Shown here one piece after another: positions 10,455-39,010 of a DNA stretch of 44,525 bases. This DNA is from a virus: IMG/VR virus record IMGVR_UViG_3300046007_005629, positions 1-44,525 of that record, one strand, 5' to 3'. Position 1 is the first letter of the stretch, and each line of letters opens with the position of its first letter. The notes beneath the pieces are model-generated. The model had not been told where the DNA came from, made no database searches, and worked only from the letters and a program-made list of their open reading frames with translations. A program made the position numbers and the translations under genes.

Positions 10455-10676
10455 TTATTTATTTTCTTTAGCATTCTTATAAACGGTTTTCAACCATTTA
10501 ATGAATCCCATTTTTTCGTCTTTTTGAATATTTGGATATTCTTTGAAGAATTCCATTGCAAACGCATTAAATGAAATCGCATCTTGAGCCATTAAATCGA
10601 TATCTGACATAGCAGATTCTTTCATTGCTTTTTTTACTTCCTCTTTGATAAGAGCTCTGAATTGAGATGCTTTCAT
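10455..10676 (-). CDS. Small protein with capsid-targeting-like leader
   Basis: 73 residues. The N-terminus MKASQFRALIKEEVKKAMKE is nearly the same as the start of the 104-residue protein at 23896-24210 (MKASEFRKLIREEVKKALNE). It forms an amphipathic helix ending in x-x-Glu before Ser, a plausible but weaker prohead protease site. The remaining 50 residues are helical with several aromatics (FAMEFFKEYPN, FIKWLKTVYK). No known family. If the leader means what it does in T4 internal proteins, this is a packaged protein, even though it lies among replication genes. It starts one base after the stop of the upstream gene. Confidence 0.75.
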   Translation of the reverse strand: MKASQFRALIKEEVKKAMKESAMSDIDLMAQDAISFNAFAMEFFKEYPNIQKDEKMGFIKWLKTVYKNAKENK

Positions 10677-22888: not shown

Positions 22889-23431
22889 TTAAAGGTTTCC
22901 TGCTTTTCCTGTAAAGTGAATATCAGCTTTATCTTCTAAACCTGATTTATTTAACCATTTGCCTAACTCTTCATCCATATTTGGTACAGGTTGAGTTTCA
23001 TTTCCTGGTTTAGATAGTTCAGGTACAATAACTTGATTGATAAACATAGCTTCTACTTTATCATCTAGTAATGTAGATACTTCTGGAGATAATTTAAGTG
23101 CATCCCAGAATGGACCTGTTAAGTTTTTAAACTCTGAAGATTTAGGATTTTTTAATCCGTCGTTAGACACAGATTTACCTATAGATAAAACAGCTTGAGC
23201 TACATCTTTAATATTTGATATGTTATCATAGGCTTCCAAAGCAGTTGTTATAATTGATAATCCTGGTATTAGCGATGCTCCCCATTTACCGCCAGTTTTT
23301 AATATTTTTGCTGCTTCAGCTTTGTTTTGCTTTCCTTTAATTGAATTTAATAATTTAGAAACTTCACCCCATGTAATTTGTTCCTCAGCTTCATTAAGTA
23401 CTTGCTCTGCTATAGGTTTAAGCTTGATCAT
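22889..23431 (-). CDS. Leader-bearing virion protein candidate with hydrophobic segment
   Basis: 180 residues from the ATG at 23431; a TTG five codons upstream (23446) is less likely. The leader MIKLKPIAEQVLNE is followed by Ala, a good match to the prohead protease site Leu-x-Glu before Ala. After it comes a basic helical region, a hydrophobic stretch (WGASLIPGLSIITTALEAY, about 52-70), and a conserved-looking PFWDALKLSPEVSTLLDDK block. No family I can name, though I recall similar segments in other T4-like phage proteins. It overlaps the end of the upstream leader-bearing gene by 14 bases (ATGATC...TAA), so the two are coupled. Probably packaged or virion-associated. Confidence 0.78.
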   Translation of the reverse strand: MIKLKPIAEQVLNEAEEQITWGEVSKLLNSIKGKQNKAEAAKILKTGGKWGASLIPGLSIITTALEAYDNISNIKDVAQAVLSIGKSVSNDGLKNPKSSEFKNLTGPFWDALKLSPEVSTLLDDKVEAMFINQVIVPELSKPGNETQPVPNMDEELGKWLNKSGLEDKADIHFTGKAGNL

Positions 23432-23771
23432 CTGTAGTCGTTGCAACTGGTTTTAACATTCCTTTAATCTTTCCTACTATTTGAGAAAATTCTTTTTCTG
23501 ACATTCCGAAGGCAATTGCAATAGCACCTACTAATGCGGCTCTTTGCGCTGGGTTCTTTAAAGATTTAGCAGCGTCTGGATCTTCAAGAATCTGTATTAA
23601 CTTAGGTCGTAGGCTCGAATCTACTGCCTTTACTGCTAGGTTCAAGTTGGTTATGATTCCTTTATCAGTGATTTTATTACCGTCCGGTCCGACAGGAATT
23701 ACATCAGCTTCATGAAGTTGCTTTTGTGGAGCAAATTCTTTTAAAAGTTGTTTGAATTTATCTGGTGTCAT
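23418..23771 (-). CDS. Small protein with capsid-targeting-like leader
   Basis: 117 residues. The N-terminus MTPDKFKQLLKEFAPQKQLH ends in Leu-His-Glu before Ala, fitting the gp21-type cleavage rule. The predicted mature part begins ADVIPVGPDGN and is a helical domain of about 95 residues with an Ala/Gly-rich hydrophobic stretch (AALVGAIAIAFGMSEKEF). No known family. Promoter-like motif at 23781-23795 and a strong terminator immediately upstream, so it starts a transcription unit shared with the next, overlapping gene. Confidence 0.78.
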   Translation of the reverse strand: MTPDKFKQLLKEFAPQKQLHEADVIPVGPDGNKITDKGIITNLNLAVKAVDSSLRPKLIQILEDPDAAKSLKNPAQRAALVGAIAIAFGMSEKEFSQIVGKIKGMLKPVATTTDDQA

Positions 23772-23895: not shown

Positions 23896-24210
23896 TTAAT
23901 TATCTAGTTTTATTTTTAACATACTCTCAATATCTTTTTTCATAGAGTTATATTCACCTCTGGTAGCTGCGTCGTAATCACCCCAGTCTACTTCACTTTT
24001 TATATCTCGTGGCGTAGATGTAGGCTTCAATTCAAACTCAATGCCATAGTCATCAATTAACATGTCGACTATCTGTTGAAACTTTTTTTGCTTTTGAGCC
24101 TCTGTAAATGCCGTATATAGCAACTGTTTTATTTGTTTATCAAGACTGCCTTCATTTAAAGCTTTTTTTACTTCTTCACGAATTAATTTTCTAAATTCTG
24201 ACGCTTTCAT
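23896..24210 (-). CDS. Small protein with capsid-targeting-like leader and LNE-G site
   Basis: 104 residues. The leader MKASEFRKLIREEVKKALNE is followed by Gly, an exact fit to the Leu-x-Glu/Gly prohead protease rule. The leader is nearly identical to that of the 73-residue protein at 10455-10676 although the bodies differ, so leader and cargo look modular. The predicted mature part is helical, acidic near the C-terminus (DWGDYDAATRGEY). No known family. It follows the tail tube gene after 10 bases and ends at the terminator at 23807-23830, so it is made with the tube protein. Confidence 0.8.
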   Translation of the reverse strand: MKASEFRKLIREEVKKALNEGSLDKQIKQLLYTAFTEAQKQKKFQQIVDMLIDDYGIEFELKPTSTPRDIKSEVDWGDYDAATRGEYNSMKKDIESMLKIKLDN

Positions 24211-30605: not shown

Positions 30606-31415
30606 TTAAGATAATAAACTATAAAATTCTTTAAAGTGTTTGATTCTATCTGCTAATCCAATAGTACCTCCATTTACTCTTTTTGTCACTGCAGTTACTG
30701 TCGCGTCATCAGCTCCTTTATCACAAATAGACCATAATTTATTAGAATCAAAAAAGAATGCTGCTGAAGCTAATGGATATTTAGTAGCTACTAAATCAGG
30801 GTTTCCAACACAATCTTCACCAATGAATTTAGTAAAGTTAGTGTAATTAGATTTTCCTGTTAATTGAATATAACCTCTTCCTCTGAATTTGAATCCTTCT
30901 CTTGAAGCTTCATCTCCATTACCCATTCTAGATGCATAAACTCTAGAAGCTATTTTTTCTGGTTGACGAGCATATAAATCGGACATATTTCCAGGAAAGT
31001 ATTTTCCAAATATTTTTTTTAACCCATCTGCTGAGTAATTTACATTTTCACTAACTGCTTTAAAATTAGCTGACTCGTGACCACATTGAGCCAAGAAGTG
31101 AGCAAGTCTTAAAGGTGTTGTAATATTAAATTTCGCAGCTGTGCTAGGAATTTGAGCAATTACTGAATCAGGAACATGTCCCTTTAATTTGTCTAATTTG
31201 AAATTTGAATTTGGTATTGCAGCTACTGGAGCTGCTCCAAACATTTTTGTCCAGGTACCTGGTCCGACGATACCGTCTGCTGTTAATCCATTAGACTTTT
31301 GCCATTCTTTAACTTTTGTTTCTGTATTAGGTCCGAAAGCACCGTCTGCAGTTAATCCTAATTTAGTTTGAAGTTTTTTTACATCTTCTCCAGATGACCC
31401 ATTTTTTAAAAGCAT
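30606..31415 (-). CDS. Endolysin: peptidoglycan-binding domain plus GH19-type muramidase/chitinase domain
   Basis: 269 residues. Residues 7-58 are a PG_binding_1 domain (SSGEDVKKLQTKLGL, DGAFGPNTETKVKEWQKSNG, DGIVGPGTWTKM). Residues 80-269 match the GH19 lysozyme-like fold: FLAQCGHESANFKAV with catalytic Glu114, a second acid Glu123 in SENVNYS, then FKFRGRGYIQLTGKSNYTNF and a C-terminal VNGGTIGLADR. It cleaves cell wall glycan at lysis. There is no signal peptide or anchor, so release needs a holin, not recognised here; the spanin-like pair lies 13 kb away. It closes the phoH-phosphatase-kinase unit. Confidence 0.92.
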   Translation of the reverse strand: MLLKNGSSGEDVKKLQTKLGLTADGAFGPNTETKVKEWQKSNGLTADGIVGPGTWTKMFGAAPVAAIPNSNFKLDKLKGHVPDSVIAQIPSTAAKFNITTPLRLAHFLAQCGHESANFKAVSENVNYSADGLKKIFGKYFPGNMSDLYARQPEKIASRVYASRMGNGDEASREGFKFRGRGYIQLTGKSNYTNFTKFIGEDCVGNPDLVATKYPLASAAFFFDSNKLWSICDKGADDATVTAVTKRVNGGTIGLADRIKHFKEFYSLLS

Positions 31416-31430
31416 GATTGATAAGTTAAA

Positions 31431-31994
31431 TTATTTATAAATGATTTTACCTAATTCGCCACTAGGTGGTCGAAATCTTTTTGCCATAACTTCTAATTTT
31501 GCCGCGTCGACACCATGAAGGTTTCTTCTAGCTAATTTTTTTACATCTTGTTTATTTGGTTCGAAAACTACATATAAAATTTTATATCCATTTTGTTGAG
31601 CTAAAGTTTCATATGGTTCTCTTTCCTTATCTGTTAAATTTGTATTGTCAATTACAATAGCAGGTGCATTTTGATGCATTGCTAAAGCAGCTTTGTTTCT
31701 GCATTGTGTATGTGCCACTCCTAATTTAGTAGCGTCAAATTTATATTCTCCTCCTTGCTCGAAATAATGATCTGCTGAACAAATTACAGGAGCTCCTGGT
31801 AATTTTTTAATAAATGTAGATTTACCTGAACCTGGTATACCTACCATAATTATAACTGTTTTTGTTACTCCTTCATTTAATTGATTAAATGCAGTGTGAT
31901 ATGGATTAGAATATACTTGACCAGGAGTGAATTGTTTCATCCATCCTTTTTCAATATCTTCTAATACTGTATCTAATATATCTTTTAATTTCAT
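31431..31994 (-). CDS. P-loop polynucleotide kinase-like protein with cleavable-looking leader
   Basis: 187 residues. Walker A GIPGSGKST at 52-60, then CSADHYF, the YKFDATKLGVAH segment and IVIDNTNLT (DxTN-type), and RRNLHGVD. These are hallmarks of the Pnk/N4BP2L1-type AAA_33 kinases that phosphorylate 5'-OH nucleic acid ends. The first 41 residues are a leader ending in AFNQLNE before Gly, a perfect gp21-type site located exactly before the first kinase strand (GVTKTVIIMV), so removal would leave an intact kinase. It overlaps the HAD phosphatase gene by 4 bases (ATGA). Together they would equal a split T4 Pnkp (PseT). An alternative is a zeta-toxin-like kinase. Confidence 0.85.
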   Translation of the reverse strand: MKLKDILDTVLEDIEKGWMKQFTPGQVYSNPYHTAFNQLNEGVTKTVIIMVGIPGSGKSTFIKKLPGAPVICSADHYFEQGGEYKFDATKLGVAHTQCRNKAALAMHQNAPAIVIDNTNLTDKEREPYETLAQQNGYKILYVVFEPNKQDVKKLARRNLHGVDAAKLEVMAKRFRPPSGELGKIIYK

Positions 31995-32536
31995 AATTTA
32001 ATATGTTCTGCCTCTGTGGTATGAACTACTTCTAAATTTACTGTCGGATATTTCATCTTTAAACCTTCTACTGCTTTTACATTTTTAATAGAATCATCTA
32101 TAAAAACTATATCTTCATATCCTTTTTTAATTTCCTTTTCTATATATGCTGACTTCTTTTGTGGATCTGCATCCCCTAGCGCTACAATATATATGTCCAA
32201 TCCAAATTGCTTTTTCAAATAATACTTAACTGGGTAAGCTAAAAGTCTAGCTGTTAGAATAGTTGTTTTAGTATTTGGGTCAGACGCTGCTTTTTTAAGT
32301 AAAGTGATATTTGACTTAATAGGCACTGCAGTTTTAATTACTGCATTGAATTCTTTGAAATTAAAAGTATCGCCTGGTTTAGCATCATACACTGCAAATT
32401 CCGCCGGCGTAATACTTTTTTCATTTCCATTATTTTTTACAATAATATTAGCTTTTACTTTTGCTAAAGTATCATCAAAATCAAATATTCTTAATTTTTT
32501 TGCTTTGGCTTCTTTTAGTATTTTAGTTATATTCAT
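31991..32536 (-). CDS. HAD-family phosphatase, probable 3'-phosphatase partner of the kinase
   Basis: 181 residues. HAD motif I is FDFDDT (18-23), motif II is the Thr-containing TILTAR, and motif IV is IVFIDDS with two Asp. The Asp pairs and the Arg after motif II resemble the phosphatase domain of T4 Pnkp, which removes 3'-phosphates. The N-terminus MNITKILKE before Ala is a short leader with a Leu-x-Glu/Ala site placed directly before the first catalytic strand. Encoded between phoH (overlap of 14 bases) and the kinase (overlap of 4 bases), so the three are coupled. Nucleic-acid end repair is inferred from the pairing. Confidence 0.82.
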   Translation of the reverse strand: MNITKILKEAKAKKLRIFDFDDTLAKVKANIIVKNNGNEKSITPAEFAVYDAKPGDTFNFKEFNAVIKTAVPIKSNITLLKKAASDPNTKTTILTARLLAYPVKYYLKKQFGLDIYIVALGDADPQKKSAYIEKEIKKGYEDIVFIDDSIKNVKAVEGLKMKYPTVNLEVVHTTEAEHIKL

Positions 32537-33170
32537 AATCTAATATTTGTCCTACTAAATCACTTCTGTGATTCTCTTTTAATTTTATCCATTCAATACC
32601 AGCTATCTTTTTAGAGAGCTCAATAGCATAAGTTAAACCTGATATAGACTCGTTCGTATCCTGCTGTTCGTTATCCCCGTTTATAATGATTTTACCGGTC
32701 TTTCCAAGGCGTGTTAAGATGGCAAGCATCTCAGGCTTCGTAAGGTTCTGTGCTTCTTCTACAATCAACACATCGTCTATTGTTTTACCTCTAATAAATT
32801 GCACAGGTAAAGCTTGAACTCTTTCAGTTTTTACAAAATCATCTATTTTAATCTTGTCCATACACTTATACAAATTCTCAATAAGTGCTTCCATATATGG
32901 ATTGAATTTGTCTTCTAAAGCTCCCGGAAGAAATCCTAACGATCTTCCTACTTCAATAGCACTTCGAGTAACTAATATTTTATCACATTGTTTTTTATTT
33001 AAAAAGTCTAAAGCTGCTTGAGCTCCTACTAAAGATTTTCCTGACCCTGCTCTACCTGTTATAATGACAATTTGGTTATCTATTATTAACTGCTTTGCTT
33101 GTTTTTGTTCTTCATTTAAAATGACATTGTACTTAATATCATTTTTTCTAACTCTATTAGGTTCTTTCAT
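32523..33170 (-). CDS. phoH: PhoH-like ATPase
   Basis: 215 residues, the size of phage PhoH proteins. Walker A is GRAGSGKS at 39-46; ILVTRSAIEVGRSLGFLPG is the typical PhoH segment that follows; Walker B-like VLIVEEAQNL; then INGDNEQQD and a C-terminal ENHRSDLV arginine motif. The function in phages is not settled; a helicase/RNA-binding role is suggested for the family. Here it heads a unit with the HAD phosphatase, kinase and endolysin, with a promoter-like motif 17 bases upstream, and lies directly after the capsid gene terminator. Confidence 0.92.
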   Translation of the reverse strand: MKEPNRVRKNDIKYNVILNEEQKQAKQLIIDNQIVIITGRAGSGKSLVGAQAALDFLNKKQCDKILVTRSAIEVGRSLGFLPGALEDKFNPYMEALIENLYKCMDKIKIDDFVKTERVQALPVQFIRGKTIDDVLIVEEAQNLTKPEMLAILTRLGKTGKIIINGDNEQQDTNESISGLTYAIELSKKIAGIEWIKLKENHRSDLVGQILDYEYN

Positions 33171-33270: not shown

Positions 33271-34959
33271 TTATACTAAATGCAATCCATGTACTTTAAT
33301 AGTACCATAGAATTCTGGTCTTACCATTTTCTTAGCATAACGTGTCATAACACCTTTACGTGGAGTAAAGTTTGTTGGATCGTATACTAATGGAGTCATG
33401 ATAAGTGGAATATATGGAGCATATACAGCACCTGTTTCCAAGAATTGAGCACCTCTATATCCTAACAAGATAACGTTGTCAGTCATATAAGGATTTTTGT
33501 AAACTGTAAATCTTGAATTCAATAAACCTACTTTTTGAACTCCCATTGCAAATTGCATTTTGTCACCATTAGTGTCAGCAGCATATCCTGGGATAGATTC
33601 TAAAATAGTAGCTACGTCTGGAGAACATACTAAGAAGTTTGCTCCACCACGCATAGTCTTTTGGTGAATTTTGTTAGATACTTTTTGGATTTTAGTTCCT
33701 AAAGTTTGGAACCAAGTACCTTGAGTATAAGCTGTTCCTGTGAAACCGCCTACAGCGAAGTTATCAGTTGCTGAGCTGTACTCATATCCTACTTGAGCAG
33801 ACCATCTTTCAGTCGTTACTGCATTTTGAATCAACATATCTAAGATTTCTAAATCAATCTCTTGAGAGATATATTCAGATAACATAGAAGTCAATTCAGC
33901 TTCAGCATCGATTGAATGGTATGCATTTAAATCTTGAGCAAACTCTGGAGACCAAATAGCTTTTAATTTTCTTGTTTTAGCAACAATTGATTCTGATTTC
34001 AACTCTACGTTGATTTCAGGAATATTGATGTCTGTTCCATTTCCTAATGTATCTTGGAAATCACCTCTATCAGATGCGGTTGGTTGTTTTTGATATCCAA
34101 TTGCAATAGTTTCACCTAATCCTGAATTTGTAATAGAACCTGATACAATAAATGTCAATGTAGTGTCATTGATATTTTTAGTAAATTGTGGATAATAATT
34201 AACAATTTTAGCAGCGGTTGAACCTGAAATCAAATAAGCTCTTACACCTTCTAAATCTGCGTTTGATAATAATGCAGCTGGTACAGAGATTTTTTTGAAG
34301 TGACCTGCAGCAATTGACGCTGAGTTAGCAGTTGTAAATTTTGAATCGTAATTGAATTCGTCAAAATCTGCATCTGAAGCCATTGTTAATGCAGCTGAAA
34401 TAGATCCTGAAGCAGTAGCTGAAATAGCAGAACCTGAAGCATTCAATGTAGTTGTTACATCATTGATTGAGAATCCAAATCTACCTGAACCATAAAGACC
34501 ACCTGTTGGATCTTGATCTAATCCACTAGTTACACCAAATACAGAGTTAGCTTGAAACCCTGGAGCTGATGGATTACCTGCTGGAGTAGCAGTATTATTA
34601 AATCCTGGCTGAGCAGTACCGTATTTGAAATCCATATAGAACACAAGTCCTGATGGTAAATTCATTGGTTGTACAGAAACGAAATCTTTAGCAGCGATTT
34701 CAGCAAATACTCTTCTTACTAATGGTAAAGCTACACCTGACCATTGCTCTGAGTTAGAAGCTGTACCTGTTGAGTTAGCTTCAGTTACTAATTGTTTAGC
34801 TTGGTTTTCAAGCATAATAGCCATACCGTGTCTTTCGTACTCGCTATCAATACCTTCTAATAAACCAGTCTTTGACCATTTACCTACTAGGCCTTTGGTC
34901 TCATCCATTTGACGACGAACTTGAGAGTTACTGTCGTTTAAGATTGATTTTAATGACAT
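33271..34959 (-). CDS. Major capsid protein (gp23-like)
   Basis: 562 residues (T4 gp23: 521). Forms the hexameric capsid shell. Typical segments: MLENQAKQLVTE-ANSTGT near residue 60, the place where T4 gp23 is cut by the prohead protease (after Glu65); LVRRVFAEIAAKDFVSVQPM; KLKAIWSPEFAQDLNAYHSID; YISQEIDLEILDMLI; and FTPRKGVMTRYAKKMVRPEFYG near the C-terminus. A Ser/Ala/Gly-rich insert at about 150-260 is not in T4. A second LLE-G near residue 35 is also cut-site-like. The A-rich leader without Shine-Dalgarno is typical of strongly expressed Bacteroidota genes. Transcribed with the scaffold gene and ended by the 33220-33245 hairpin. Confidence 0.95.
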   Translation of the reverse strand: MSLKSILNDSNSQVRRQMDETKGLVGKWSKTGLLEGIDSEYERHGMAIMLENQAKQLVTEANSTGTASNSEQWSGVALPLVRRVFAEIAAKDFVSVQPMNLPSGLVFYMDFKYGTAQPGFNNTATPAGNPSAPGFQANSVFGVTSGLDQDPTGGLYGSGRFGFSINDVTTTLNASGSAISATASGSISAALTMASDADFDEFNYDSKFTTANSASIAAGHFKKISVPAALLSNADLEGVRAYLISGSTAAKIVNYYPQFTKNINDTTLTFIVSGSITNSGLGETIAIGYQKQPTASDRGDFQDTLGNGTDINIPEINVELKSESIVAKTRKLKAIWSPEFAQDLNAYHSIDAEAELTSMLSEYISQEIDLEILDMLIQNAVTTERWSAQVGYEYSSATDNFAVGGFTGTAYTQGTWFQTLGTKIQKVSNKIHQKTMRGGANFLVCSPDVATILESIPGYAADTNGDKMQFAMGVQKVGLLNSRFTVYKNPYMTDNVILLGYRGAQFLETGAVYAPYIPLIMTPLVYDPTNFTPRKGVMTRYAKKMVRPEFYGTIKVHGLHLV

Positions 34960-34989: not shown

Positions 34990-35859
34990 TTATTTTTTTA
35001 AACCTGCTAATTTTTGGAATCTGCTAGCTAAGTCAGCTCCTTCAGATAAAATACGCTTTGCTGGTTTAGTTGAAGCTACTGGCTTCGATGCGTATGATTC
35101 TTTAATCGACTTTTTAGATGATGGAGTTTTGAATCCTTCAGCTAATGTTGAGAAAACTAATTTCACTTCACGTAAATTATGAGCTCTGTCAAAGTTTTCA
35201 ATTACTTTCATTTTTTGACCTTCGTTCAATGCAAAATTACGGAACAATTTGTTTGAGTAAAGAAGTTTAGCATTCAATAAATTAACTTCATTGATTTTAC
35301 CTTTTAAGAAACGAATAACATTATAAGCTTCTTCTAACTCTTCGCTAGACTCTTCTTCTTCAGTCATTTCTTCAGCTTCTTCATCTTCTTCTCTTAAAGA
35401 ACGAATGATTTCGTTGATGTCGATATCTTCATCTTCTTCTTCAGTCATTTCTTCCTCTTCTCCTTCTTCCATTGGGTCTTCTTCAGAATAATCGCCTTCT
35501 TCCATTGAGTCGTCAGAATCGCTTTCTCCTTCTAATTCTCTGATGATTTCTTCTAAATCTAAATCATCTTCTTCTTCAGTCACTTCTTCTTCAGAATGGT
35601 CTTCTTCAGAATGGTCTTCGCCTTCTTCACCTTCCTCTACAGGAGCTTCGTTATCAGCATACGCCATATCATCTTCTTCATGCATCTCTTCGGTTTCAAC
35701 TTCTTCTTCCTCTTCAGAAAGTTCTTCAGCTAATTTCGCAGATAACATAGATTGAAGTCTTGGAGTAAACGCTTCTTCTAAAGCTAATTTAGCATTAGCA
35801 AGGGCAGTTTGTTTTACAGCTTTTGCATCAGCAATCGCTTCTTTCAATAAATCTTTCAT
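34990..35859 (-). CDS. Prohead core/scaffolding protein (gp22-like)
   Basis: 289 residues. Internal scaffold degraded or cut during head maturation. The N-terminus is an Ala/Lys-rich helix (MKDLLKEAIADAKAVKQTAL). Residues about 45-170 are extremely acidic, with repeated Glu/Asp/Ser/Met runs encoded by GAA/TCTTC-type repeats. The C-terminal third is helical and basic. At least four gp21-type sites are present: LALEE-A, ALNE-G, TLAE-G and ILSE-G. Position between the protease and capsid genes matches T4 gene 22. A possible Shine-Dalgarno (AGAGGA) lies about 8 bases before the ATG, unusual for this window. The leader contains two promoter-like motifs and an inverted repeat. Confidence 0.88.
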   Translation of the reverse strand: MKDLLKEAIADAKAVKQTALANAKLALEEAFTPRLQSMLSAKLAEELSEEEEEVETEEMHEEDDMAYADNEAPVEEGEEGEDHSEEDHSEEEVTEEEDDLDLEEIIRELEGESDSDDSMEEGDYSEEDPMEEGEEEEMTEEEDEDIDINEIIRSLREEDEEAEEMTEEEESSEELEEAYNVIRFLKGKINEVNLLNAKLLYSNKLFRNFALNEGQKMKVIENFDRAHNLREVKLVFSTLAEGFKTPSSKKSIKESYASKPVASTKPAKRILSEGADLASRFQKLAGLKK

Positions 35860-36043: not shown

Positions 36044-36832
36044 TTATACTTTTATGACTTTTGATATTACAGTTTTCAGTACTTCCATAGTCATATCACT
36101 ACCTTTTAATGTATCTACAACTAAATGAGTCAATGCTTCTGAATTAGTCCCTAAGTGTGATAATGCCGAAGATACTCCTGAAACTCCTTCTAAAGCGTGG
36201 TATATACCAAACCCAGCAACGCCTATCATAATACATGCATAAATTAATTCTGCTGCCGGTCCTGCATTTTGTTTAAGCCATTTATTTCCATTCATAAAAG
36301 CTACTCCTTGAAGTATTTTTTTAATTGGATATACAAACGCAGCATGCGCCATATGAGCAAATTTACCTAGAGCCTTACCAACCTTTGAAGCATATATTTT
36401 ATCATGTAAATTATGCATTACCTTTTCGTCTCCAGCCTTTTCAGCTTCTTCATATTGCTTTTTATATGATTCTAATTCTTTTCTCTCTTCAGAAGTTAAA
36501 GCTAATTTAGAATATGCCCAATCAATTAATTTGCCTAGTAATTTTAGTAAAGTAGGAGAAGCTAAAACTAAGGATAAAAATAATCCTTCATTTAAAACAT
36601 CTTCTTTAATTGTATCATCTGACTCGATAGCATCTAATGAAACATCTTCAGGTCCTTTAGAAGATAATTTCTTATTTTCCAAGTCTTTTGCAATTCCTTT
36701 TAAAAGCTTTTCTAAATCAGCATCAGACGCAATGCCAGCTTCTGCTAACATGAATCGATCTTGTTTAGTTAATGATTCTTTAACTAAAACAAATGCCTTT
36801 GTGTGTGCTGGTATAGCATCGTATAATTTCAT
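36044..36832 (-). CDS. Predicted membrane-active, protease-processed head protein
   Basis: 262 residues. Two strong gp21-type sites: FMLAE-AGI near residue 31 and DVLNE-GLF near residue 84. Directly after the second site comes a hydrophobic helix (LFLSLVLASPTLLKLLGKL), then a charged coiled segment, and a second hydrophobic helix near 195-215 (LIYACIMIGVAGFGIYHAL). It lies in the head block between gp21 and gp22, so it is probably an internal head component whose mature form has two membrane-type helices. A role in DNA ejection is possible but inferred. The ATG overlaps the preceding stop (TAATG), and a terminator follows. No family recognised. Confidence 0.8.
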   Translation of the reverse strand: MKLYDAIPAHTKAFVLVKESLTKQDRFMLAEAGIASDADLEKLLKGIAKDLENKKLSSKGPEDVSLDAIESDDTIKEDVLNEGLFLSLVLASPTLLKLLGKLIDWAYSKLALTSEERKELESYKKQYEEAEKAGDEKVMHNLHDKIYASKVGKALGKFAHMAHAAFVYPIKKILQGVAFMNGNKWLKQNAGPAAELIYACIMIGVAGFGIYHALEGVSGVSSALSHLGTNSEALTHLVVDTLKGSDMTMEVLKTVISKVIKV

Positions 36833-37576: not shown

Positions 37577-37966
37577 TTAAAATTGTGCTATGTATTTATT
37601 ATTTTTAAACAATACCGTTCCAGACTCTAAAGTTTCTTGCTTACCAAATGGATGAACAAACTTAAATCTAAATAAAAATGTATATCCTCCAATTATATTT
37701 GGCAATGGAGTTACTACAACTTCTAGACTTAATGAATTAAACATTGCCTTCATTATATTTGTTCTAATTTCTTTTTCTAAAGAAGTAGCGTACACGACAA
37801 CGTTATTACCTTTTTTTAATAAAGTAGGAGTAGCTGGATTAATACCAGTTTGTTGCCTGAATACATCAACAGCTCCTTTTAAAACTTGCTCAGAAGGTTC
37901 TACTACAGCTTCATTTAAAGCTTTTCTAACTTCAGACTCTATAAGTTTTTTTAATTCAGCTTTCAT
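37577..37966 (-). CDS. Small head protein with capsid-targeting leader (LNE-A site)
   Basis: 129 residues. The leader MKAELKKLIESEVRKALNE is followed by Ala: the same amphipathic helix and the same ALNE end as the protein at 23896-24210. The mature part (about 110 residues) is predicted to be alpha/beta, with VFRQQTGINPATPTLLKKGN and strand pairs ending in LFKNNKYIAQF. Not recognised. It starts on the stop codon of the gp21-like protease gene (TAATG), which supports a link between protease and substrate. Confidence 0.82.
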   Translation of the reverse strand: MKAELKKLIESEVRKALNEAVVEPSEQVLKGAVDVFRQQTGINPATPTLLKKGNNVVVYATSLEKEIRTNIMKAMFNSLSLEVVVTPLPNIIGGYTFLFRFKFVHPFGKQETLESGTVLFKNNKYIAQF

Positions 37967-38577
37967 TATTTTATATCAGTTAAGATATCAGTTATCAATC
38001 TATTTACTTTTGTGTATTTAGATGATGAAAACGTTTGACCTGGTTGGATTGACTCATGCATTGGTTTTAAAAATGCTCCGTGAGTTGAAGGATTTGATAC
38101 AAAGTCAAATGCAATTAACTCAAAGTCATTTTGAACTTCAACTTCAGATTCTCCTAATTGCTTAACAGACCCTAGACCTCTAGAAGAGATACCTAATTTA
38201 ATTCCACATTTGAAAAGTTCTTTTAAAATGTTTCCTGATGGTGTTGATAACACTTCTACAGTACCACATAAATCATTTCCATCCCAATGCATTTCTGTAA
38301 TGTTATGAGATACATTGTTTAAGTTAACTATAGATGAATCTGGATGATCTAGCTCACCTAACGCTCTTCTTTCTTTAATATTAATATCAGAATACTTTTG
38401 TGCTTCTCTCATTAATATATTTTTTGGATATTTACGTCCGTTTTGATTAGTGGCATCTGCTCTTTGCAAAACACCTTTAACCATTAAGCGTCCTCCGTTT
38501 CTTTCCATAGATTCGTTAATCTTATCTGGCGAAATGTCAAAGGTGATATAATCTACTAATAATTTTTTATTTTCCAT
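37966..38577 (-). CDS. Prohead maturation protease (gp21-like)
   Basis: 203 residues (T4 gp21: 212). Serine protease of the herpesvirus-assemblin-like fold that cuts scaffold, capsid and internal proteins after Leu/Ile-x-Glu. His78 lies in GELDHPD and the nucleophile region is GISSRGLGS (Ser131/Ser132), both diagnostic for the T4 group. RADATNQNGRKYP near 39-51 and the DFVSNPSTHGAF segment near 170 are further family marks. Encoded between small head proteins and the scaffold, as in T4 (20-21-22-23). It would be the enzyme acting on the many Leu-x-Glu leaders in the window. Confidence 0.93.
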   Translation of the reverse strand: MENKKLLVDYITFDISPDKINESMERNGGRLMVKGVLQRADATNQNGRKYPKNILMREAQKYSDINIKERRALGELDHPDSSIVNLNNVSHNITEMHWDGNDLCGTVEVLSTPSGNILKELFKCGIKLGISSRGLGSVKQLGESEVEVQNDFELIAFDFVSNPSTHGAFLKPMHESIQPGQTFSSSKYTKVNRLITDILTDIK

Positions 38578-38581
38578 GATA

Positions 38582-39010
38582 TTATTTTAAATGTAATTGA
38601 GACGATAACTTCATAAAAGTAGACTCAGCTACATTGCTTTTATTTTTCTTAACTTTTTTATATCCTAGCATTTCGATAGTGTCATCTTCTACATCTCCGA
38701 AAGCGGCAGGAGTGTCATATCCAGCAACTCCAGCTGTTGTAGACATTTCTGTGATGTCTTCGCCTAGCTCATTCATCATAAAGTCAAATACTTGATCCAT
38801 GTTATTTTTAGCTTCTGATATATGATCTTCAGCCCAGTCATGCCCATTTTCAAGTATATTATTAATTTCCATTTCATCTTTGTTTAAAAGAATCTCACAT
38901 TGTCTATGCATTTGTTTTAAATTGCTATAAAACATGTAATTAATAGACTTACTTGAGTCTAACGCTGCTTCCTTTAAAAGGAATTTTTTAAATGAATCTG
39001 AATAAGACAT
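38582..39010 (-). CDS. Small head-module protein with STTAGVAGY motif
   Basis: 142 residues. The N-terminus MSYSDSFKKFLLKE before Ala is a short leader with a Leu-x-Glu/Ala site. Helical with several Met and His in the middle; then EMSTTAGVAGYDTPAAF near 95-112, a motif I recall from several head-region proteins of T4-like phages, followed by an acidic and then basic end. Function unknown. It lies 4 bases upstream of the gp21-like gene, within the same run of closely spaced head genes. Confidence 0.78.
   Translation of the reverse strand: MSYSDSFKKFLLKEAALDSSKSINYMFYSNLKQMHRQCEILLNKDEMEINNILENGHDWAEDHISEAKNNMDQVFDFMMNELGEDITEMSTTAGVAGYDTPAAFGDVEDDTIEMLGYKKVKKNKSNVAESTFMKLSSQLHLK

Follow-up and report, generated by a model that had tools for sequence, protein, structure and literature searches.

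Gene organization of the locus

The window, by which we mean the whole 44,525-base stretch of DNA analysed, covers part of the genome of a T4-like myovirus and stands as a separate virus record. Along its minus strand the genes run in the order gp21-type protease, core/scaffold-like protein, gp23, PhoH, a HAD protein, a P-loop kinase and an endolysin, followed by neck and tail genes (Table 1), and the processing site of gp23 (LVTE/A at residue 60; a slash marks the site here and below) is as expected. The nearest major capsid proteins are those of Microcystis phage Mel-JY01 and Flavobacterium phage immuto (56-58% identity; 56.5% for immuto), which makes a bacteroidete host likely, and the hosts of this T4-like phage are probably flavobacteria. 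Small genes near the tail genes (22889-23446, 23418-23771 and 23896-24210) have leader-like N-termini.

Table 1. Coordinates of the HAD and kinase genes, their parts, and the leader-bearing and head genes of the window
Feature	Position	Strand	Basis
Endolysin, downstream border of cargo slot	30606..31415	-	phrog_181 E 4e-68; synteny
P-loop (AAA_33, Pnkp-type) kinase gene, 187 aa	31431..31994	-	AAA_33 E 2.3e-17; T4 Pnkp profile and fold matches
Kinase leader, residues 1-41, end LNE/G, proposed capsid-targeting propeptide	31872..31994	-	low model confidence; HAD homologues; purifying selection
Predicted mature kinase, Gly42 to residue 187	31434..31871	-	first strand 46-52; invariant residues
HAD phosphatase gene, 181 aa	31991..32536	-	phrog_415 (PNK phosphatase group) E 9.7e-11
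HAD leader, residues 1-9, MNITKILKE/A	32510..32536	-	pLDDT <50; cf. T4 IPIII MKTYQEFIAE/A
Predicted mature HAD, Ala10 to residue 181	31994..32509	-	HAD motifs invariant
PhoH gene, upstream border of cargo slot, without leader	32523..33170	-	PhoH E 4e-52; synteny
Major capsid protein gp23, site LVTE/A after residue 60	33271..34959	-	Gp23 E 6.7e-82; site
Acidic prohead-core/scaffold-like protein, N-terminus MKDLLKE/A, many further ExA/ExG sites	34990..35859	-	between protease and gp23 genes; sequence
Head-cassette protein, VLNE/G site after residue 82	36044..36832	-	sequence; similar protein behind HAD in L016/L017
Small protein, class-B leader MKAELKKLIESEVRKALNE/A	37577..37966	-	sequence
gp21-type prohead core serine protease, proposed processing enzyme	37966..38577	-	Peptidase_S77 E 1.8e-30; phrog_207 E 7e-54
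Head-cassette protein, short leader MSYSDSFKKFLLKE/A	38582..39010	-	leader pattern
Small protein, class-B leader MKASEFRKLIREEVKKALNE/G	23896..24210	-	leader pattern
Small protein, class-B leader MKASQFRALIKEEVKKAMKE/S	10455..10676	-	leader pattern

The HAD and kinase genes overlap by ATGA at 31991-31994, and the sequences at the proposed sites are MNITKILKE/AKAKKLRIFDFDDT and ...FNQLNE/GVTKTVIIMVGIPGSGKST respectively. In AlphaFold models (mean pLDDT 82.6 for the HAD and 67.9 for the kinase) the first predicted strand comprises residues 13-18 of the HAD and 46-52 of the kinase; residues 1-9 of the HAD form its sole segment with pLDDT below 50 and correspond exactly to the leader, and the low-confidence part of the kinase model is essentially residues 1-42. 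The two overlapping genes of the original prediction, with their motifs and with leaders that end at the enzyme folds, are thus confirmed both by the sequence and by the modelled strands and pLDDT. The kinase leader is itself under purifying selection, with pN/pS of about 0.05-0.6 as compared with 0.06-0.44 in the enzyme domain. The residue following LNE is E, not A or G, in the kinase relatives L006, L007, L009, L021 and L022, and two relatives have very short HAD leaders (MIFE/A in L007 and MLKE/V in L008).

Relationship to polynucleotide kinase-phosphatases

The best PDB profile match of the kinase is T4 Pnkp (3.7e-10), the top Foldseek matches of its predicted fold are the kinase domains of Clostridium thermocellum Pnkp and T4 Pnkp, and hhalign aligns it to Pnkp with a probability of 99 (E 4e-18); as originally predicted, it groups with the Pnkp kinases, and not with the zeta or nucleoside kinases. 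The P-loop, D75, D116 and R157 are invariant in 11 kinase relatives. Set against the residues that we take to be catalytic in T4 Pnkp (K15/S16, D35, R38, D85 and R126), K58/S59 (S or T), D75, D116 and R157 are kept, and Phe78 lies at the position of R38, the residue of T4 Pnkp that binds the 5'-OH. Profile, fold and motifs together suggest that the protein is quite probably a 5'-OH polynucleotide kinase.

The affinities of the HAD protein are looser. Its motifs (D19/D21, T95, K128 and D147/D148) are invariant in 30 relatives. Of the PHROGs it matches only phrog_415 significantly, and the phosphatase domain of T4 PseT matches this group too; PNKP phosphatases make up many of the named viral proteins that its fold matches. 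A sequence search of PDB gave nothing useful for the HAD, the PDB folds matched by its model are generic HADs, and its fold matches include a deoxynucleoside-5'-monophosphatase. Alignment with the Pnkp phosphatase by hhalign is weak (probability 75, E 2.5e-5), with motifs I to IV aligned. The assignment as a Pnkp 3'-phosphatase is a moderate one, with the phrog_415 match in common with T4 PseT in its favour and the weak alignment and generic folds against it. The sequence places the HAD weakly nearest to T4-Pnkp-type phosphatases, and we lean slightly towards a 3'-phosphatase. In comparison with T4 Pnkp (PseT), the kinase domain is homologous and the HAD domain weakly so, with every motif in alignment, but here there are two leader-bearing genes, with the HAD gene first, and either may stand alone.

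The gene content of the slot between PhoH and the endolysin bears on whether this is a split Pnkp. Both genes are present in the window and in L004-L008, L021 and L022, the kinase only in L002, L003, L009 and L020, and the HAD only in L012, L013, L018 and L043; in L026 the HAD follows PhoH without a kinase, and no endolysin was recognised. The idea of a split Pnkp pair is right in that kinase and phosphatase genes are separate, rather than joined in one polypeptide as in the bifunctional T4-type Pnkp, but the gene content does not support their being two halves of one unit, since the HAD is missing from L002 and L003, whose kinase is 99% identical, and the kinase is missing from five HAD-bearing relatives. 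The two enzymes also have different histories: L004 and the window share an identical HAD domain, and their kinases are about 86% identical. From their distribution the two are not obligate partners, either occurring alone.

No RNA ligase is known from the 44.5 kb of the window, and RNA ligase families were searched for in its long relatives. The nearest of these, G002, has a PF09414 ligase-family match without a leader, PF09414, PF09511 and RtcB are all without a match in G001, and no ligase found in the relatives carries a leader. G003 encodes a leaderless homologue of the kinase (138 aa, E 5e-25) in an overlapping operon, and the order in this segment (L263 1034-3215; G003:C1 about 60,533-62,714) is a phosphoesterase-like gene, identified from its sequence and not by profile, the leaderless Pnkp-type kinase and an Rnl1-type RNA ligase. 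The operon resembles C. thermocellum Pnkp (kinase-phosphoesterase-ligase) divided into separate genes, and the kinase fold of that enzyme is also among the best PDB matches of the window kinase; the window kinase differs in that its partner is a HAD instead of a metallophosphoesterase and in having no adjacent ligase. A kinase gene of this kind also overlaps an annotated RNA ligase gene in Aeromonas phage 2L372X. This neighbour and the G003 operon together suggest that leaderless kin of the kinase work beside RNA ligases.

Leaders and sites in related and unrelated proteins

Leader exchange is seen between the two enzymes. Where the slot contains both genes the HAD has a short leader; in the relatives with a HAD alone (L012, L013, L018 and L026, and more weakly L043) it carries a long leader, ..KVYSDP..F..INE/A, with homology to that of the kinase. 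Local alignments of HAD leaders with kinase leaders give z up to 15.6, and for most pairs 0 of 500 shuffles did as well, L043 being weak.

Matching xxE[AGS] as a regular expression within residues 1-50 discriminates poorly (14 of 47 window genes as against 8.3 expected by shuffling, and 47 as against 33.6 in G001), and it was replaced by tests specific to the leaders and to the domain borders. For the border test we used 40 distinct IMG/VR HAD relatives with an N-terminal extension, the expectation being taken from other windows of the same proteins. The motif [LIVMF]xE falls within -10 to +2 of the first HAD strand in 37 of the 40 (5.0 expected), and the strict form [LIVMF]xE[AGS] is at the border in 23 (0.9 expected). 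These HADs are related to one another, although at least five unrelated leader types share this ending, and the FTELRTG group scores in the loose form only and its cut site is doubtful. That the leader ends at the edge of the enzyme domain, as noted for the two window proteins, is therefore beyond chance. Among 30 aligned HADs the leader ranges from absent to about 48 residues long, with xxE still just before the first strand, and leaderless HADs are present in the gp21-bearing phages G003 and G012.

The border site is also found where the HAD lies hundreds of residues into a long fusion. In L079 (6249-8534) and L059 (2404-4032) a CCA-adding-type tRNA nucleotidyltransferase is fused to the HAD with xxE at the HAD border (...IINE/GGRILRVFDFDD in L079), and the L079 fusion has an N-terminal leader as well (MMRKVDFIKKVFNLNE). 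Fusion to such an enzyme hints at tRNA 3' ends; phage RNA-repair tools include both PNK-linked HADs and CCA-adding enzymes (PMC7824862). Chains of 1000-1500 aa in L027, L033, L038, L046 and L052 contain an N-terminal nucleotidyltransferase-like region (DNA_pol_B_palm in L038), a cytidylyltransferase-like part and a HAD, the border in L052 being ...KLEE/GRSSKKLRVFDFDD. The xxE motifs near several domain borders of HAD chains suggest a polyprotein that would be processed by the prohead protease. The multi-domain enzyme chains known as polyvalent proteins, which occur in phages and conjugative elements and are thought to be injected (PMC5512222), resemble those HAD relatives of 850-1500 aa that have nucleotidyltransferase and cytidylyltransferase-like domains, but the sites at several borders here suggest release by the prohead protease and not by a built-in peptidase. 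In another lineage, L016 (4991-6265) and L017 (7998-9272), the HAD is fused in front of a protein like the head-cassette product of 36044-36832, with EEG between them. Matches of our first HAD profile to ORF 36044-36832 itself came from two fusion rows of the alignment, and there is no HAD domain there.

A 10-residue stock leader, MIKLKD[LI]LxE, opens dozens of proteins that are otherwise unrelated, a further HAD among them (L172, MIKLKDLLLE/KKLRVFDFDDT). An exact DNA scan of IMG/VR for ATG-encoded MIKLKDxLxE found at least 120 stretches, as compared with 3 in a codon-shuffled control, and 88 leader proteins were read from 80 loci of these. The bodies behind the leader include NUDIX proteins, RNase_T-type exonucleases, AAA_33/zeta-type P-loop proteins, RimK ATP-grasp proteins, lysozymes, M23 peptidases and the HAD. 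Among 53 non-redundant leader-bearing proteins, recruited without requiring Glu, 39 have Glu at position 10, whereas at the positions on either side only 3-8 do (p about 2e-34 against a background of 6.8%), and A, S or G follows the site directly in 37%, as compared with 11-20% further on. In an uncontrolled count, the gp21 protease is on 15 of 25 stock-leader contigs, all of them partial. Leader counts in the long relatives G001 and G002 are 23 (2.4 in shuffles) and 18 (1.4), respectively.

Arrays of such genes are seen in both of these relatives: at G002:C1:2711-15732 consecutive genes open with MIKLKDLLxE or MKKSELRxLIREEVRKxLxE on different bodies, and at G001:C1:165173-172932 there is a similar array of stock-leader genes. 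Leader proteins at G001:C1:166592-167074, L152:5016-5906 and L200:1187-1531 share a YHYTS/YHFT start that resembles ADP-ribosyltransferase-like folds and is a candidate for one; T4 Alt is an injected protein of ADP-ribosyltransferase-like type. Flavobacterium phage immuto has a stock leader of its own, MENFDLKKFLVENKLTTNSKILKE, on several unrelated genes (L264 2632-3932 and L265 1803-2318), has the leader MIKLIDLLTE as well, and contains neither the kinase nor the HAD in the 145 kb examined. The cultured-phage collection yielded no relative of the HAD of L074. Because some proteins with the MIKLKD leader are lysozymes or M23 peptidases and some leader-like proteins are encoded near tail genes, the leader may not mark head cargo in every case, and the lysozymes that bear it may act in entry instead.

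Probable packaging and possible role of the enzymes

The N-terminus of T4 IPIII and IPII is MKTYQEFIAE/A. Black and colleagues described how these 10 residues direct proteins into the head and are removed by gp21, and the 10-residue leader is enough for packaging and delivery (review, PMC9026906). The proteins described here have three of the marks of internal head proteins with a capsid targeting sequence (CTS): a leader in front of the mature domain that ends in a gp21-type site, a gp21-family prohead protease in the same phage, and exchange of the leader between unrelated proteins. They share with T4 IPI-IPIII and Alt the short N-terminal leader ending in xxE, its use on unrelated proteins and the gp21-family protease in the same genome, and the 9-10 residue form has nearly the same layout. 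They differ in the proposed cargo, which would be end-healing enzymes, in using leaders of several classes, among them a class of about 40 residues exchanged between kinase and HAD, and in the number of leader-bearing genes, which is about 20 or more in the long relatives. A search of open-licence papers turned up no account of such a set of leaders or of Pnkp being packaged.

The recurrence of the leaders, the Glu and A/S/G bias, the co-occurrence of the protease and the design of T4 IPIII/IPII argue strongly that the leaders are capsid-targeting propeptides. With the domain-border sites, the leader exchange and the presence of the stock leader on many proteins, the HAD and the kinase are very probably packaged. 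The suggestion that the pair may be packaged and injected, made initially from a single sequence, is thus well supported by comparison of leader exchange, stock leader, border statistics and Glu at position 10.

The mechanism that we infer is one in which the leaders would place HAD and kinase in the prohead core as head cargo, the phage gp21 would cut after Glu9 of the HAD and Glu41 of the kinase at head maturation, and the trimmed enzymes would stay inside the capsid to be delivered along with the DNA. Once in the cell, the kinase would phosphorylate 5'-OH ends and the HAD would strip 3'-phosphates, so that the ends, either of RNA (tRNA cleaved by defence ribonucleases of the host being the likeliest) or of nicked DNA, would be healed before phage gene expression and sealed by a ligase made later. 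Injected end healing is likely on the sequence evidence; for the whole mechanism, packaged end healing with RNA as the substrate, we consider the chances to be about even.

The HAD and kinase could instead be packaged and act on something else, such as DNA ends, free nucleotides, nucleotide-derived defence signals or protein. The generic HAD folds, with a deoxynucleoside-5'-monophosphatase among them, would fit this, as would the loss of the equivalent of T4 Pnkp Arg38, the separate occurrence of the two genes and the failure to find a leader-bearing ligase in the relatives. Against it, the kinase is closest to Pnkp kinases by both profile and fold, its leaderless kin adjoin RNA ligases, and the HAD is fused to a tRNA nucleotidyltransferase in L059 and L079, and we regard another substrate as a real but rather unlikely alternative.

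The leaders themselves could be amphipathic helices at the N-terminus that serve some other purpose, such as core assembly, contact with the membrane or the ribosome, or regulation, on enzymes that are ordinary late cytoplasmic proteins. Their presence on scaffold-like proteins, near-tail proteins and lysozymes, and the leaderless HADs of gp21-bearing phages, are compatible with such a role, but it seems improbable given that the border Glu is kept on unrelated proteins with A, S or G favoured next to it, as gp21 cleavage predicts, and that the leaders occur in protease-bearing phages and correspond to that of T4 IPIII both in length and in site. That these are an ordinary metabolic HAD and a generic P-loop kinase with ExA/ExG motifs arising by chance is very improbable. 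The motif [LIVMF]xE[AGS] is short and common, and the 14 window genes seen are to be set against the 8.3 of 47 expected; the border and Glu-10 statistics over the relatives, the homology of kinase and HAD leaders and the Pnkp affinity of the kinase all speak against chance.

The pair may belong to something larger. Tentatively, and with less confidence than in the mechanism itself, we suggest a large and exchangeable kit of head-packed enzymes with stock leaders, some of them made as polyproteins cut at domain borders, in which a tRNA-repair subset (5'-kinase, HAD 3'-phosphatase and CCA-adding enzyme) would mend tRNA cut by the host as soon as infection begins. Because stock leaders are found on dozens of other proteins in the sister phages, the injected proteome may be readable from sequence; if the leader code is right, the set of delivered proteins could be listed from the genomes of a large group of uncultured phages, and the question of which proteins they inject becomes directly testable. 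T4 injects a few internal proteins and makes its Pnkp only after infection. Unlike T4, these phages would then include in the injected set end-healing enzymes that counter defence ribonucleases before phage gene expression.
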